NCBI GenBank assembly: GCA_946803715.1
Contig: CAMPET010000022.1
Location: 162,775-219,957, forward strand
Reading direction: 5' to 3'
Length of the DNA: 57,183 nt
Source of the DNA: Beroe ovata
Lineage: Eukaryota; Ctenophora; Nuda; Beroida; Beroidae
The notes under the pieces were generated by a model. The model saw nothing but the letters and a program-made list of their open reading frames with translations. It searched no databases and was not told the DNA's origin. Below are positions 37 through 34,300 of the stretch, piece by piece. Positions within the stretch are counted from its first letter, which is position 1. Each line of letters starts with the position of its first letter. The position numbers and the translations under genes are program-made.

Positions 37-3000
37 GACAAAACATGGTTGTGCATCATGTCTGAAGACAGTTCTGGAATCACTGCGCTAGGAGACCTCA
101 CGCCTATCCAGTGTTGTAGCAAGGCTGACTCAATAGAATGCAGGTGGGTTTGGTGTTGGTTTCAGATTCACTTCGACACAGTAACCGAGATTTAATGTTT
201 TATTTTTCGAAAATCCATATCATCTTGAATGATTTTGCCTAGAATTCAGGGCTTATTCTCGAAACTCGAGATTGTTTTTAAGAATAGTAAATTGTAGCTT
301 CACGTCATGTAACATATGTGTGCTTCTCAATTACACAATTACTGCACAATAGCATAATATCACGGCCATCAACGAGACTTTGCGTGTGATAATGGAGATG
401 AAAGACTCATCTTTGAGATAATATGCTATTGTGTGTTTATGAGTGTGTATGTGTGTATGTGTGTGTGTGTGTGTGGGATTTGTCATTGGGTGATGCCCTG
501 AATTATGGTATTTTCAACTTCAAGTTGGGTGCCTTATGGAGGCGCCATAACAACAGAAAAAAGCTCGATAATACCCAACAAACACGTGCTCTGTGACAGT
601 CACGTGTACTACACGTGTTATCACAGGAACCTGTGTCTGGGACTCTATCGAGACTGGCTGAATCACGATTTGTGGGACAGGTTCAGTAGGAGATGTCAAT
701 ACCAGCCCATCGAGGAAGAGATGACTAACTGTCTACTGGATGGTGAGTAGAACCTGAATGGAAGGAGGAATTTCTCTACCTACGATTTACTTTTAGGGAT
801 CTAAACTCACTTTTTCCAGTTTCCGAACCATGCACTCTGGGCTGTGATCATCTTTCTTTCTGTGAGAATCTAAACAACAGGTGAGCGATCGACTGGCATG
901 CGTTTTTATCTACTGCTATAATATCCTTCATGCTCTGCCTCTTCTTCATCAAAGTTTCCCTCATGTTCTCACTTTCCCCCATGTGCTCACATTTAGCTCT
1001 CATCACATCCCCTCTGCCCGCTTCCAGACCGTTCGATCTGTTCCGTACGTGCTCCGCAACATACGACAAGGGTGCGGAGCTAGACTACGAGTTGTGGTCG
1101 ACACAAGGTCTCATAACGACCCCACTGGTCAACATCACCGTACTGGACATCAACACGTGCAAACCTGATGTCTGGAAGGTAGGGTTTCATTGATTTACTT
1201 TGAAGGTATCATTAAAATCTCAAAATACCACTTTTATTCTACTTCATTCTTTTGCCCTGACCCTCACTGGATTGTATTTTTGGGAGATTCCTATTTGCTC
1301 CCAGGCGATTGCATGTGTGATTCATACCAAACCATGCCATGCTAAGTCACACAGTAACAAGATATGCAACAGCGTGTGTACTGATCTCCTGGACTCTTGT
1401 CTTGACCGAAACCGGTAAGAATAAACGGAATTTCCTCCACGGTTCCCTTCCCACTCGATCTATACAATTATCTGATTTTTGATTGCAGTTTATATCTGAC
1501 TCTATCAGCTAATTGGATAATTGAATGAATACTTTCTGTACGATAACAATAAATCTGAAATTATTTTGTAGATCACATCGAACGGTCGAAGAGATCTGTG
1601 CAATACTTGCACCCAACCATGACCCTGATCTATGCATCTCCTTGGATCACTACATGGGTAAGGAAGGAATTTACGAGTTTTAATTCACAAAAACGCTTCC
1701 CTCCACAAAGTTATAATACTCCTCGCCATAGTTACGACCATCCTCTGCAAAATGATCATCCTCCTTTGCAAAGTTATTACGGTTCCCTGTTATGTCATCC
1801 TTGTGTGACAGTCCCAGGTATCCCTGATGACGAAGGACGGGTCACACACCCCTGTCAGCCAAGTCCCTGTTCCAGCACTCAGCAGTGTGTACTGGACAGA
1901 AACTTGATGTCTGATGACATCACTCACTGATGACTGATGACATCACTCACTGATGTCTGATGACATCACCTCCCCTCATCGCAGGTTGTAGTATTGGAGC
2001 TCTCCGAGATTACCAAGTCGAGGTGGGGAGCTGGGTTCGGATCCCTGTAGTCGAGGATTCCGACTGTTACAAAGTCTGCACGTGCGACAGTAACAAGAAA
2101 CTGTCCGGTTGTCAGGATCTCCAATGCCCGGGCAACACGCAGTGCCGGATTGCTGCCGACCAATCCTACGCGCACAACTCGCACTTCGACTACGAGTGTA
2201 ACCTCTGTGTATGTTACTCTGGTCTGGTCACGTGCACCAAGAGGAATTGTGCGGATGATAACATGGTGATCAGGGCGGTTACGCCGTTACCAGGGGGTTG
2301 CTCGCCCTATTACTCACCGGTGTGTGGGATCAATGGCGCTAGCTACCTCAACCCCTGCATTGCCAGGTTATATGTCACAATGTGTTACTATTACAATGTT
2401 GTTGATTTTCCATGACGTGTCAGTAATAATTACCCCTCAATCACCCATTCTCACAGAACATTCAACATGAAGGAATCCCAGCTACACTATCAGTCGTGTA
2501 ACAGTTTGGATGTGTGTGCTAACTCTCAGTGTCCCGAGGGCCAGGTGTGTCGACCAAACCGACAAACATGTCTTGATCTCAGGTACATGACCATTCCAGA
2601 ACCAAGCTTTTCAATCCGGTTTTTCCGATTTCCCATAACTTCTGTGTTTGAAAAAGAACGGAATCACAGACCCTGCCCCCTCCCGCTCAGATTATCATGT
2701 CCCCAATTTGAGTGCGAGTCCCCGACAATTAACTGCGAGGGAGAGGATTTGGAGCCGGTGTGTGACACAAACAATGTGCAGCACCCGCACATGTGCTCCC
2801 TGGTACAACACCAGCGCACTCTCGCTCACCGGGGCTACTGTGTCGGCAGTTGTAATGCTACGACTGGGAGTGTGTGCGGTGCTAACGGTATGTGATATCT
2901 GATCAACCTAGACTCACTCTTTTCCCGATCACTCTTTTCCCGATCAATCTACTTCTCATACCGTGCAAAACTACCGGCAACTTAACGCGACGTGTTCGTG

Positions 3001-5494
3001 AACGCTATTCCCCCTCCTCGAACATGAAAACCTAACAGGACGTACGTATGCGAGTGCGTGCACAGCAGAAAGTGACTTCATGATTGTGGACTACATTGGG
3101 GAGTGCCAGCCTCCCACGGACGAGGACCTTGCTGAGGTAATGATTTGTTGTGCAATTATCGATAGTTGTGTAATTATCGATTAGTTGTACTTGTGTAATT
3201 AATATTATCGATTTTCAATTTAGATCACTCACTAAATTTTGGTCAGTTTGGAGGCATGTAATTGTAAATCCTCATGAAGAACAAAAAGTGGCTTGATTTT
3301 AAACTTGCAAATTCACAATTAACATCTGATTTTCGGACCATACATAAAAACTGTTAGTCAAACGATAGAAAATTATCATCATATCTCATCGCGTTAGTAA
3401 AGTCTAGTTATCAAGAAATCCCAGAAATTCTCCCACTTTCAGGAACAATTCTTTAGCTTTTTCCGTTTCCATGGCAACTTCCTCGTCACTCATATCAGGG
3501 ATGCTCCTCTCCTGCAGGTAGAAAATCCCCTCTCCCTCTTCATTTGTGATGATATCATCTGCTGATCTCTTGACATAGAAGATGCCATCCCCTGACTCAT
3601 TCTCAATGGCTCGCTTCGCGTAGAAAATCCCCTCTCCCTCAGAGTTTCTCTCAACTACATCATCAAGGTAGAATATCCCGTCCTTGCCCTCCGCAGACCT
3701 CTTGACGTAGAAGATCCCGTCTCCCTCTTCATTCTCCACAACCTGCTCTTGTCGGTTGTTAACGTAGAATATCGCTTCCCCCGCTGAATCGAACATGATG
3801 TCCTCGTTGTCACTCGATCTCCTAGTTCGGGCGTAGAATATGGCATCTCCCTCCTCATTGAGGATGAGGTTGTTGTCAGCGGCACGTTTGGCGTAGAAAA
3901 TAGCGTCTCCCGCTTCATTGAGAATGGTGTTGTCGGCTGCTCTCTTTGCGTAGAATATCGCATTTCCCTCCTCATCGACAATTGTTGATCTCCGGTTAAC
4001 GGCAGCTGATAGGAATACTGGGATGAGCCAAGCAACGAGGAGAAGTGGTGTCTGAGTTGTTCTCATCTTGAGCTGCACTGGTTGATGATCACTGCTATTA
4101 TTATAGTAACACTGAATCTACCCAGACACCATACCCTTCTTATATATACCCACTCTTCCTTGCCTCGCATAACTGTCATTTGGAAGGTAAATTATATCAT
4201 TATGTCCAGTGCCAAGGGCAAGTTGTTGGGAAACACATGTCCGCCAATCCGCCATACTGCATGATTATGAGGGTGTTGATGAGGGTGTGATGTTTGATGA
4301 CAGAGTGTGATTCGAGAGAGCTATATTTCGTGATTCTACTGCAGAAGGTGTAAAGTGCTCAGCCTGATTTGGTTTCGAGGTTCACGGACTGCCGTCATGC
4401 GTGGGATAATTAGACATCTGGTGGTTATTTATACGTGTCCGGCGTCCGCCCCCGTTCTGTGAAATAGTCCGGTATTACGAGGTGTGATTTTGCACACACA
4501 ATTATACAATTAAAATATGACCGATCATGTCCGAAAAATCATGAAATCATGGGCTAAATCATTTGATATTTTACTGCATCTAAAACAAGCCTAAATTAAC
4601 ATTCCATTCTGAGAAAACTGCAATCCCATGCCATCCCTCATAAAATCTCATCCCAATACCACCTCATCCCTCATCCCGTGGAATCGCATTCTCTTTCTCT
4701 CAGGGTCGGTTCTGTAGCAGGAAGGTGGAGTGTCCCCGGCTGCCCAGTATCTGTGTGGGTAACCACGTGCCTGGCATGTGTTGTCCGGTGTGTGCTGCGG
4801 TAGTGTCAGTGTTACCGAGTCAGGTGCTCGTGGCTATCAACGAGATGTACCTCTCCTCGGAGAAGCTGACTGTTTCCTTGCTGTGCAGGAAACTCAACAG
4901 TCTCCTCAGCTTGGTGAGTTGTCACTCGAATACCATGCATGTTACCACTCGCAATGTTACCACTCTCACTGGTCAAGGTGGTAAAACTAATTGTTACCAC
5001 TCTGATCGTTGCCACCACCCTAGTCGGAGTGCCTGGTCCAGTGCAATCTTGGACTCTATGGGGATGTAGTTGCTCTGGTATACACAACAATGCCCTCCCC
5101 ATCATGGGTACAGGTCAGTACGATCGCATGCCTCGATCTTCACGGCATTCTTCACAGAATCATGGATATTGCTATCATCATTCTCCAATGAGAGTGTGCA
5201 GATACAATAACATCCATTAAAACAGCCACTTTTTTATAACGGATAATCCTATCGCAGATTGAAGCGTGCAACAACGAAGCAATCCGTTTAGAGACAATGA
5301 TTTCAATAAAACACGTGCGAATTCAGGCAGACTTAGTGCTAAGCACAGCGCTTGGTGCACGTGCGGTTACAGCTAATATCACAGGGTCACGTAGTGGTGA
5401 CACAGTGACAGTTTACCATTCCACGCTTGGGTTTGCCTTGTTGTTGTGGTGGTACTTTTATCAGTTATTATTTACACGATTTTTTGATATATGA
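37..5494 (+). CDS. RECK: RECK orthologue, 5'-truncated by the window edge
   Basis: RECK is a GPI-anchored extracellular protein with cysteine-knot repeats, a Frizzled-like cysteine-rich region and Kazal-like motifs; in vertebrates it restrains metalloproteases and works with GPR124 in Wnt7 signalling. Exons read: 37-143, 525-742, 820-880, 1028-1178, 1305-1414, 1572-1657, 1812-~1886, 1985-2366, 2457-2582, 2691-2887, 3039-3136, 4704-4913, 5024-5113, 5258-5494; phases agree throughout. Seen: CC-x-KAD cysteine knot, then NITVLDINTCKPDVWKAIAC, KPCHAKS, VTHPCQPSPC, Kazal-like PVCGINGASYLNPC and SVCGANG-RTYASAC, and a C-terminal hydrophobic tail (LLLWWYFYQLLFT) fitting a GPI signal. These align along vertebrate RECK as I remember it. 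The signal peptide and first knots lie before the window. The donor of the 1812 exon is uncertain, next to a 23-bp minisatellite. The 3137-4703 intron contains an antisense gene. Confidence 0.93.
1906..1973. repeat. 23-bp minisatellite at a RECK exon-intron junction
   Basis: About three copies of TGATGTCTGATGACATCACTCAC-like units (two of them with small changes) lie between the RECK exon starting at 1812 and the acceptor at 1984. Human RECK has roughly 15 further residues, including a CLPYFC-type segment, at the matching place, and I cannot find them here. Confidence 0.7.
3404..4066 (-). CDS. Secreted IFY-repeat propeptide precursor, nested antisense in a RECK intron
   Basis: Single exon of 220 aa. 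The first ATG in frame is at 4066; codons upstream of it lack ATG. Residues ~1-24 form a signal peptide (MRTTQTPLLLVAWLIPVFLS). The rest is an acidic precursor with nine copies of G-[NDE]-[AG]-I-F-Y or the variant KDGIFY. The tripeptide is followed by A, V or L and, in most copies, by a basic processing site (AKR, VKR, ARTRR) or a single R (VNNR, DDVVER, LQER). Spacers are 8-20 residues, rich in Glu, Asp and Asn. The last ~33 residues (after LQER) lack the repeat and end in an amphipathic KAKELFLKVGEFLGFLDN. I do not recognise the family. The layout is that of a prepropeptide with many copies of one product: neuropeptide-like or RiPP-like. No Gly precedes the KR, so C-terminal amidation is not predicted. 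A TATA box lies 75 bp upstream. Confidence 0.8.
   Translation of the reverse strand: MRTTQTPLLLVAWLIPVFLSAAVNRRSTIVDEEGNAIFYAKRAADNTILNEAGDAIFYAKRAADNNLILNEEGDAIFYARTRRSSDNEDIMFDSAGEAIFYVNNRQEQVVENEEGDGIFYVKRSAEGKDGIFYLDDVVERNSEGEGIFYAKRAIENESGDGIFYVKRSADDIITNEEGEGIFYLQERSIPDMSDEEVAMETEKAKELFLKVGEFLGFLDN
4141..4148 (-). promoter_or_regulatory. TATA box of the IFY precursor gene
   Basis: On the minus strand this reads GGTATATATAAG, 75 bp before the ATG at 4066. The spacing leaves a 5' UTR of about 40-50 nt. It supports an independent transcription unit rather than a random ORF. Confidence 0.6.
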
Positions 5495-7691: not shown

Positions 7692-8368
7692 TCAATTGCA
7701 GTGAGTGGCTCGGATAGGTCTAGCAGATGATATGTTACTATCAAGACCCAACTCTGCTAGTTCACTCTGGTTGTACTCTTGTCCTGGGCACACTATTGTA
7801 CTACTCCCTTTGAAGTATGCATCAGAGAATACCTCCCAAGCGTGTTTCTCAGCTCGTATGGACGATACCACGTCGTTGAATCCTATCTTCGCAAAGTCGT
7901 CCACCATCCCAGAGAGACCGATAGTATTCCCGGTTTTGTTATCACTATCCCACACATCGAGGCGGCAGGGTGAAGTTATCTTGTGCAGTGATGATATCCC
8001 CTTGTACAGACCAGCTGAGTGAAGCTCCGTGTAGCCAAGCGTGATTCCAGGGCAGACATCAACATAGGTTCCACTGAACCAGCCATCTGCATACAGTCTC
8101 CACGCATAATTCGTGCTGGTAACAACCTCTGCTGCATCATTGATGTTCAGGTTGGCCAAGTTATGTTGTCTCCTAGTGATATCACTAATGCCCCTGCTGT
8201 GGTAAATTTTCAGCCCTCCTGAAATGTCAACACATTAATATAAGATGGTGCTGGAAAAAGTGTAAAGTGTGATGAATTAAAAGAATGCAATAAGAATTAA
8301 GAAAAATGCTCTGACTCACCCTCAACGGACGAAAATAATGCCAATACAATGAGAATCTGCTGATGCAT
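7692..8368 (-). CDS. Secreted beta/gamma-crystallin, two domains
   Basis: Two exons, 8368-8320 and 8218-7692, give 191 aa. Exon 1 is a signal peptide (MHQQILIVLALFSSVEG). Exon 2 holds four Greek-key units, i.e. two beta/gamma domains. Seen: aromatic-x4-F-x-G hallmarks in YADGWFSGTY and FSDAYFKGSS, each followed by CPG; the canonical calcium motif NDVVSS in unit three; a relaxed form, DSNISS, in unit four. The family includes vertebrate lens crystallins and invertebrate calcium-binding proteins, known also from sponges. A secreted, calcium-binding structural or matrix role is an inference. Start chosen because the upstream exon supplies a clean signal peptide and the junction phase (1) fits. 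Confidence 0.9.
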
Positions 8369-31372: not shown

Positions 31373-34300
31373 ATGAGATTGCTTCACAGTATGTTGGTTC
31401 TATCAGGGCTGCTGACTCTGGGATACTCTCTGGGAGAGAGTGTCGGCCAGTGTAAGAGTAGGGAGGAGTTGAGTGAGTGGGAGAGAGGAGTGCTGGATGA
31501 ACACAACAAACTGAGGAGACAACACACCGACACTCCCGACCTGTGTTACGCTGCTGCACACCCGGGGGGAGAGGGGGAGGAGGGGGGAGTGGGGTTTACA
31601 GCACAGGTGTGGGCCACACACCTCGCACACACGGACACCTTCTCACACAGTACAGACCGCGGGGAGTACATTGGGGAGAACATAGCTTATGGGAGTAGTA
31701 GTGGTCACCTACCAGACAAGATTACCACCACCAACTCCTCTATTCACAGGTACTACCAGTGTGTGTGTCTATTATAGAACAACACTTACTCTATAATATT
31801 ATAGAGTAAGTGTTGGTCTACCTTATATAATCAACCCCTTAATAAACTTCTCCTTACCAATTACCTATCTGACTAGAAATCTGATTAGAAATGCCACGTC
31901 TCTCCATAAACCCTCTGACTGCTTACAGGTGGTATAAAGAGATAGAGGGGTGGAATTTCGAGAGTAACACGGCGTGCCCTGGGAAGATCACGTCACACTT
32001 CACAGCCATGGTGTGGCGGGAGACTAGACTACTGAACTGTGGGCACGCCACAGCCACACTCCCCAACAAGAACAAGTACTTCGTGGTGTGCCAGTATTTT
32101 GTGAGGGGTAACTTCGGGGGAGCTGAAGATTACGAGAAACAAGTGGGGGATCCTGTAGTGGGGCGCACTGTTAACAGTTGTAGTGTGGTGACACCACGCC
32201 CTGACAACACCCAGGAGAGCGGCGGAGAAACAGATGCTGACACTGACAGAGAAGCGAGTGTCGGCCAGTGTAAGAGTAGGGAGGAGTTGAGTGAGTGGGA
32301 GAGAGGAGTGCTGGATGAACACAACAAACTGAGGAGACAACACACCGACACTCCCGACCTGTGTTACGCTGCTGCACACCCGGGGGGAGAGGGAGAGGAG
32401 GGGGGAGTGGGGTTTACAGCACAGGTGTGGGCCACACACCTCGCACACACGGACACCTTCTCACACAGTACAGACCGCGGAGAGTACATTGGGGAGAACA
32501 TAGCTTATGGGAGTAGTAGTGGACACCTACCAGACAAGATTACCACCACCAACTCCTCTATTCACAGGTACTACCAGTGTGTGTGTCTATTATAGAACAA
32601 CACTTACTCTATAATATTATAGAGTAAGTGTTGGTCTACCTTATATAATCAACCCCTTAATAAACTTCTCCTTACCAATTACCTATCTGACTAGAAATCT
32701 GATTAGAAATGCCACGTCTCTCCATAAACCCTCTGACTGCTTACAGGTGGTATAAAGAGATAGAGGGGTGGAATTTCGAGAGTAACACGGCGTGCCCTGG
32801 GAAGATCACGTCACACTTCACAGCCATGGTGTGGCGGGAGACTAGACTACTGAACTGTGGGCACGCCACAGCCACACTCCCCAACAAGAACAAGTACTTC
32901 GTGGTGTGCCAGTATTTTGTGAGGGGTAACTTCGGGGGAGCTGAAGATTACGAGAAACAAGTGGGGGATCCTGTAGTGGGGCGCACTGTTAACAGTTGTA
33001 GTGTGGTGACACCACGCCCTGACAACACCCAGGAGAGCGGCGGAGAAACAGATGCTGACACTGACAGAGAAGCGAGTGTCGGCCAGTGTAAGAGTAGGGA
33101 GGAGTTGAGTGAGTGGGAGAGAGGAGTGCTGGATGAACACAACAAACTGAGGAGACAACACACCGACACTCCCGACCTGTGTTACGCTGCTGCACACCCG
33201 GGGGGAGAGGGAGAGGAGGGGGGAGTGGGGTTTACAGCACAGGTGTGGGCCACACACCTCGCACACACGGACACCTTCTCACACAGTACAGACCGCGGAG
33301 AGTACATTGGGGAGAACATAGCTTATGGGAGTAGTAGTGGACACCTACCAGACAAGATTACCACCACCAACTCCTCTATTCACAGGTACTACCAGTGTGT
33401 GTGTGTCTTTTATAGAACAACACTTACTCTATAATATTATAGAGTGGGTGTTGGTCTACCTTATATCAACCCCTTAAAGTTAATAAGCTACTCCTTTAGA
33501 AACTTATTCAATCCATGGAGCCATGCCGTCCCTTTTATTACCTTCATGACCCATGGATAACCCAACTAATGAAACAGTTACCTACTACCTATCTGACTAG
33601 AAATCTGACTAGAAATGCCACGTCTCTCCATAATCCCTCTGACTGCTTACAGGTGGTATAACGAGATAGAGGGGTGGAATTTCGAGAGTAACACAGCGTG
33701 CCCTGGGAAGATCACGTCACACTTCACAGCCATGGTGTGGCGGGAGACTAGACTACTGAACTGTGGGCACGCCACAGCCACACTCCCCAACAAGAACAAG
33801 TACTTCGTGGTGTGCCAGTATTTTGTGAGGGGTAACTTCGGGGGAGCTGAAGATTACGAGAAACAAGTGGGGGATCCTGTAGTGGGGCGCACTGTTAACA
33901 GTTGTAGTGTGGTGACACCACGCCCTGACAACACCCAGGAGAGCGGCGGAGAGAATGAAACAGATGATGGAAAAAGTGACACAGAAGACAAAGGAATTGA
34001 TCAGCCTGACAGCAATGTTAACACTGACACCAACACAAACGATGCCGCAGCTGAGTCGCATAACGAATCAAGTTCAGAGACAGAATCTAAAACTGACACC
34101 AATTCCGCGGACAAAGATCCCACCCCAGATGTTGACACCCAAGATAGTTCTGATACAACAACTGAGCTACCGGCATGTGACTGCTGGACACCGCAGTGCG
34201 GATTCTGTGATGATCTTCGGTGTTCGGTCAAATTCAACATCTCCTCCTCACGACATGGTATCACTGTCCGATCTCACCTCAAATGGAAACCCCTCAACTC

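Follow-up and report, generated by a model that had tools for sequence, protein, structure and literature searches.

A probable nine-unit peptide precursor gene within an intron

Does an open reading frame carrying nine IFY units encode the precursor of secreted peptides, and what would such peptides do in the animal that makes them? We examined this in a window of 57,183 nucleotides (the whole stretch of DNA analysed), in which the frame runs uninterrupted on the minus strand for 220 codons (220 aa), from an ATG at 4066 to a stop codon at 3406-3404; the plus strand of 3404-4066 contains stops within the frame shown. The original prediction had given the outer coordinates exactly, and its description of a single exon holds for the open frame as predicted; the strand is minus (Table 1).

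The gene lies antisense within a GT...AG intron of a RECK-like gene. The exons flanking this intron keep one frame across the join, and upstream plus-strand reading frames match RECK (8e-13) as well as Kazal models in Pfam. Neither AATAAA nor ATTAAA occurs within 700 bases past the IFY stop codon, and a scan of the whole window against Rfam returned no family at its gathering score.

Table 1. Features of the IFY precursor gene and its host gene, in window coordinates
Feature	Position	Strand	Basis or remark
IFY precursor gene	3404..4066	-	Open reading frame and translation; seven protein relatives
Intron (GT...AG) of RECK-like gene, holding the IFY gene antisense	3137..4703	+	Flanking exons, upstream models
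RECK-like gene, host of the IFY gene	1960-5100	+	RECK EGF1-like, FnI and Kazal matches
TATATA, possible TATA box	4143..4148	-	82 bases upstream of the IFY ATG; sequence only
Signal-peptide-like N-terminus, residues 1-22	4001..4066	-	Hydrophobicity peak at residues 9-19; basic pair at 25-26
Unit 1, GNAIFYA, then KR	3947..3967	-	
Unit 2, GDAIFYA, then KR	3890..3910	-	
Unit 3, GDAIFYA, then RTRR	3830..3850	-	
Unit 4, GEAIFYV, then NNR	3761..3781	-	
Unit 5, GDGIFYV, then KR	3704..3724	-	
Unit 6, KDGIFYL, then DDVVER	3665..3685	-	
Unit 7, GEGIFYA, then KR	3617..3637	-	
Unit 8, GDGIFYV, then KR	3572..3592	-	
Unit 9, GEGIFYL, then QER	3515..3535	-	Last unit in the family is [IL]FYLQE
C-terminal helix, residues 194-215, in conserved tail	3422..3487	-	AlphaFold block means 79, 85 and 71 over residues 191-220

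The protein supports the precursor architecture that had been proposed for it, namely a signal peptide followed by nine IFY units and dibasic sites. Its N-terminus resembles a signal peptide, a call made from hydrophobicity alone, and by the same measure no 19-residue window past residue 30 looks transmembrane. VNRR follows the hydrophobic stretch, ahead of the first unit. The units start at residues 37, 56, 76, 99, 118, 131, 147, 162 and 181; eight of the nine read G-[NDE]-[AG]-IFY and one reads K-D-G-IFY. After IFY-X, KR follows in five units, and RTRR (as AR-TRR), NNR, DDVVER and QER in one each. Past residue 22, the net charge is -23, and the protein contains no cysteine.

To judge these counts, we shuffled the same protein. 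The protein has nine IFY; 100,000 shuffles averaged 0.046 and never exceeded three. KR or RR occurs seven times past residue 24, where shuffles averaged 1.3 and none of 20,000 reached seven. With both so far above the shuffles, the repeat architecture is not due to chance.

A conserved family with an IFY core

Some 5.8 billion proteins were searched three times: the first search returned three relatives, the second seven and the third those seven again. In the second and third, scoring was confined to the 8000 candidates with most words in common. The seven share the layout of the window precursor, at E values, taken from whichever search first found each, of 6e-32 to 2.5e-5, and they retain conserved IFY cores, as the original prediction expected of orthologues. 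Four relatives bear the source label ena and three the label merc, which we take to be a marine eukaryote metatranscriptome catalogue; if so, the three merc relatives would count as evidence that the family is transcribed in other animals.

The similarity extends beyond the repeats. Four members, the window protein among them, retain the N-terminus, and in each of these the signal region is succeeded by a basic pair and then [SA]TI. The full tail, KAKELF..VGE.LGF, is found in four members (the window, P0002, P0004 and P0005), each of which has [IL]FYLQE in place of IFYAKR in its last unit; a fifth member, P0003, ends in a divergent TFFLKD.

Unit statistics were computed from 34 exact IFY units, nine from the window and 25 from the relatives. 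As only exact IFY was admitted, the core cannot vary among them; another two units, recognised by position, read TFF (P0003) and LFY (P0005). The consensus is N-E-[EA]-G-[ED]-A-I-F-Y-A-K-R. Upstream of the core, N or D occupies position -6 in 31/34 units, E position -5 in 25/34, G position -3 in 29/34, D or E position -2 in 27/34 and A or G position -1 in 32/34. The residue right after IFY is A, V or L in 33 units and E in the remaining one, and KR stands directly past IFY-X in 22 of the 34. Glycine never follows IFY in these units, and neither GKR nor GRR occurs in any of the eight sequences (window plus seven relatives), which upholds the earlier argument that a lack of Gly speaks against amidation.

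Compared pair by pair, the IFY codons of the nine window units differ in 34 places, every one a third position; over residues -5 to +5, by comparison, there are 222 third-position versus 212 first- and second-position differences. The restriction of IFY codon changes to third positions speaks for constraint on IFY at the protein level, and for the frame chosen. Within this one gene, the codon pattern is modest evidence of constraint, as the units share ancestry and as few as three silent changes would account for it.

Three relatives break off abruptly near the Gly in front of the [DE][AG]IFY core: P0001 and P0007 end there and P0006 begins there. Judged from protein sequence only, these may be genomic reads that run into introns, in which case other species may have an intron ahead of the core. 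The window gene has none at this point.

We also searched the assembly (77.8 Mb, 534 contigs). A protein search found a single place at E <= 1e-3, giving no paralogue. The pattern IFY[AV]KR matched six times, five of them within the IFY gene and the sixth in a 33-aa frame on contig C36 that reads IFYAKS. Collections of prokaryotes and viruses gave 146 and 57 stretches with the pattern, respectively, none of which was confirmed.

Host and processing enzymes

The role of such peptides depends on the animal, and the original prediction had raised a host without nerves, such as a sponge. The gene content of the assembly does not bear this out. Innexins gave 14 matches on 10 contigs, 13 of the 14 over the cut-off. 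Glutamate receptors gave five matches, a lower bound counted exon by exon. For two of these receptors, the first stretch of the ligand domain has its best PDB match in ML032222a, named in the manner of Mnemiopsis genes (135 and 111 bits), and the first is identical to it at 60 of 118 positions. The second closest match of both is 4zdm (97 and 83 bits), presumably a glutamate receptor of Pleurobrachia, and other receptors reached only 68 and 56 bits.

According to extracts of the published work, innexin-related genes are absent from Oopsacas, as in other sponge lineages (PMC10280926), and no innexins occur in Amphimedon, in available sponge transcriptomes or in Trichoplax (PMC4685580). For ctenophores, 12 innexins are tabulated (PMC10280926, PMC4685580) and 14 glutamate receptors reported (PMC4685580); the five receptor matches fall short of that number and so count somewhat against a ctenophore, although five is a lower bound. 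With sponges reported to lack innexins in these extracts, the 14 innexin matches lead us to reject a sponge (PMC10280926, PMC4685580). The innexins and the two Mnemiopsis-like receptors point instead to a ctenophore, and ctenophores do have nerves; on gene content and glutamate-receptor similarity we consider the host very probably to be one.

As regards a cnidarian or bilaterian host, Neur_chan_LBD (the Cys-loop ligand domain) and zf-C4 (the nuclear-receptor DNA-binding domain) had no match in the assembly, in searches run without a positive control and taken as supporting only; nuclear receptors from two ctenophores are described, in an extract of PMC3038971, as being without a zinc-finger DNA-binding domain. 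Homeodomains, which played no part in placing the host, matched 87 times, with the motif present in 26 of the 30 loci fetched. COX1 had no match in the assembly. The 18S gene (locus L013, G000:C1:669150-671200) is about 1,400 bases long, compared with 1,831 positions in the model, and holds an N; its shortness and the N may reflect a collapsed ribosomal repeat. For this gene, a plasmid collection yielded two records, at 83% and 86%.

The assembly also encodes enzymes of the kind that a multi-copy precursor would need. One convertase reading frame combines a pro-domain, a subtilase domain and a P-domain and scores 609 bits against furin in the PDB, a second has the same three domains plus furin-type repeats, and a third P-domain piece is present. 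The convertase frame at locus L003 (G000:C332) is at least 1056 codons long, has no introns and carries a long array of furin-type cysteine-rich repeats. Three pieces resembling peptidyl-glycine monooxygenase lie on contig C9. Amidation may thus be possible in this animal, yet the IFY precursor offers no amide donor.

Proposed processing and products

We propose that the IFY gene probably encodes a secreted, disordered, multi-copy precursor of free-acid peptides that act as messengers in a ctenophore. The architecture, the conserved family, the constraint on IFY and the convertase genes are the observations behind this reading; from them we infer cleavage, peptide ends, cell type and signalling role, and, more strongly, the host phylum.

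The signal peptide would direct the precursor into the secretory pathway, where a furin/kexin-type convertase would cut past KR, RR and some single R, and a carboxypeptidase would remove the basic residues from the cut ends. The products would be acidic peptides of about 10-17 residues that have ...N-E-[EA]-G-[DE]-[AG]-I-F-Y-[AV] in common and whose C-terminus is free, not amidated. Splitting at KR and RR alone would give seven pieces, including STIVDEEGNAIFYA, AADNTILNEAGDAIFYA and AIENESGDGIFYV, and two pieces would hold two units each. Acidic residues are also reported as major cleavage sites in Bolinopsis and Nematostella (PMC9525235, in extract). Given that D or E stands at -2 in most units, trimming at acidic residues could shorten the IFY products, at the extreme to [AG]IFY[AV]; as conserved positions reach to -6, a peptide of at least 10 residues is the more likely. 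The products would most likely be extracellular messengers released from neurons or neurosecretory cells.

Past the last unit, LQE is followed by the conserved helical tail (3407-3511, minus strand) in all four members with a full tail. This unit, IFYLQE, is apparently not split from the helical tail, and the two may form a sorting piece or a separate product.

Relation to known peptide systems

The ctenophore precursors of the VWYa, NPWa, FGLa, RWFa, WTGa and other peptides (PMC9525235, in extract) resemble the IFY precursor, whose host is probably a ctenophore too, in having a signal peptide, cores at basic sites and acidic neighbours. The peptides listed there are amidated, however, whereas the IFY units have no Gly after the core. 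That mass-spectrometry survey paid particular attention to amidated peptides, and its authors anticipated that non-amidated ones would yet be discovered. No IFY peptide is among those named in the extracted sections of PMC9525235.

Outside ctenophores, the LW-peptides of Hydra (PMC12440616, in extract) are non-amidated neuropeptides, as we propose for IFY, but they are cnidarian and the likeness is one of description. The phoenixin and nesfatin precursors (PMC9004410, in extract), compared likewise by description, are conserved and secreted in early-branching animals, as is proposed for the IFY precursor, but have no IFY repeats.

A full-text literature search for the letters of the IFY motif found no paper whose title points to such a precursor. 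We found no published description; this search did not extend to the lists of candidates from Mnemiopsis (30) and Pleurobrachia (72) named in PMC9525235, and the IFY gene may therefore already stand in one of them. The IFY precursor is most likely a conserved, so far unnamed precursor of peptide messengers, of a kind that searches for amidated peptides would miss. A broader possibility, which we hold tentatively and at somewhat below even chances, is that IFY peptides are ctenophore-wide free-acid transmitters or hormones, overlooked since surveys sought amides.

A conserved precursor with nine free-acid cores would supply synthetic peptides, an antibody target and the starting point of a receptor hunt, in animals that are already in laboratory culture. 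If the family is lineage-specific, it would lend further weight to the view that the neural messengers of comb jellies were assembled independently, as a set of their own.

Alternative explanations

The precursor could be secreted and multi-copy and its products still serve another purpose than messaging, such as defence, digestion or prey capture. The signal peptide, repeats and dibasic sites would serve such peptides too, and extracts of PMC9525235 report that digestive and epithelial clusters of Mnemiopsis also highly express peptide-processing genes. A short, acidic peptide with a near-invariant core would nevertheless make a better receptor ligand than a membrane-active peptide, and we regard a non-messenger role as unlikely, though it is the main rival.

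It is less probable still that the protein is secreted uncleaved, as a structural, adhesive or matrix protein in which the KR sites are incidental. Repeats are frequent in adhesive and matrix proteins, and 12 of the 34 units have no KR directly past IFY-X. KR and RR are, however, far more numerous than in shuffles and are kept across the relatives. The seven Pfam matches of the precursor all fall under the curated cut-offs (best E 0.0031), and a PDB sequence search found no match up to E 10. AlphaFold, run on an alignment of just eight sequences, gave a mean pLDDT of 43.1 and a pTM of 0.20, with pLDDT below 50 in 171 of the 220 residues, including 34-137 and 139-188; it showed no folded repeat in this cysteine-free protein, and the tail helix is its sole confident region. 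A disordered repeat region with only the tail confident is in keeping with a precursor rather than with a folded repeat protein. The better match to a structural repeat protein that the original prediction had named as its possible undoing was thus found neither over the Pfam cut-offs nor among PDB sequences nor in the AlphaFold model.

The least probable alternative, to which we give very little weight, is a ribosomal precursor whose Tyr core is crosslinked or cyclised, as the original prediction had suggested, or supplies a small molecule such as an imidazopyrazinone luciferin. A short, invariant aromatic core flanked by kexin-type sites would fit, and fungal dikaritin precursors have a signal peptide and many short Tyr cores ahead of KR sites; those fungi use dedicated oxidases, whereas the IFY host is an animal and Pfam recognised no such modifying enzyme among the 16 other reading frames scanned in the window, which leaves crosslinking or cyclisation with no positive evidence. 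Conservation out to -6 also suits a longer linear peptide better. As for a luciferin, ctenophore coelenterazine has been proposed to originate from a Phe-Tyr-Tyr tripeptide (PMC4488382, in extract), but the core here is IFY and not FYY, the next residue being A, V or L in all units but the one with E.

Other genes of the window

Further along the window, a protein with a beta/gamma-crystallin domain is encoded at 7692-8159 on the minus strand (Pfam, E 1e-9). Pieces of a gene for a CAP (cysteine-rich secretory) protein form a tandem array at 31435-33877 on the plus strand, in which 300-base stretches recur three times with 98-100% identity at a spacing of 818 bases (906 once). The array either arose by recent duplication or is an artefact of the assembly.
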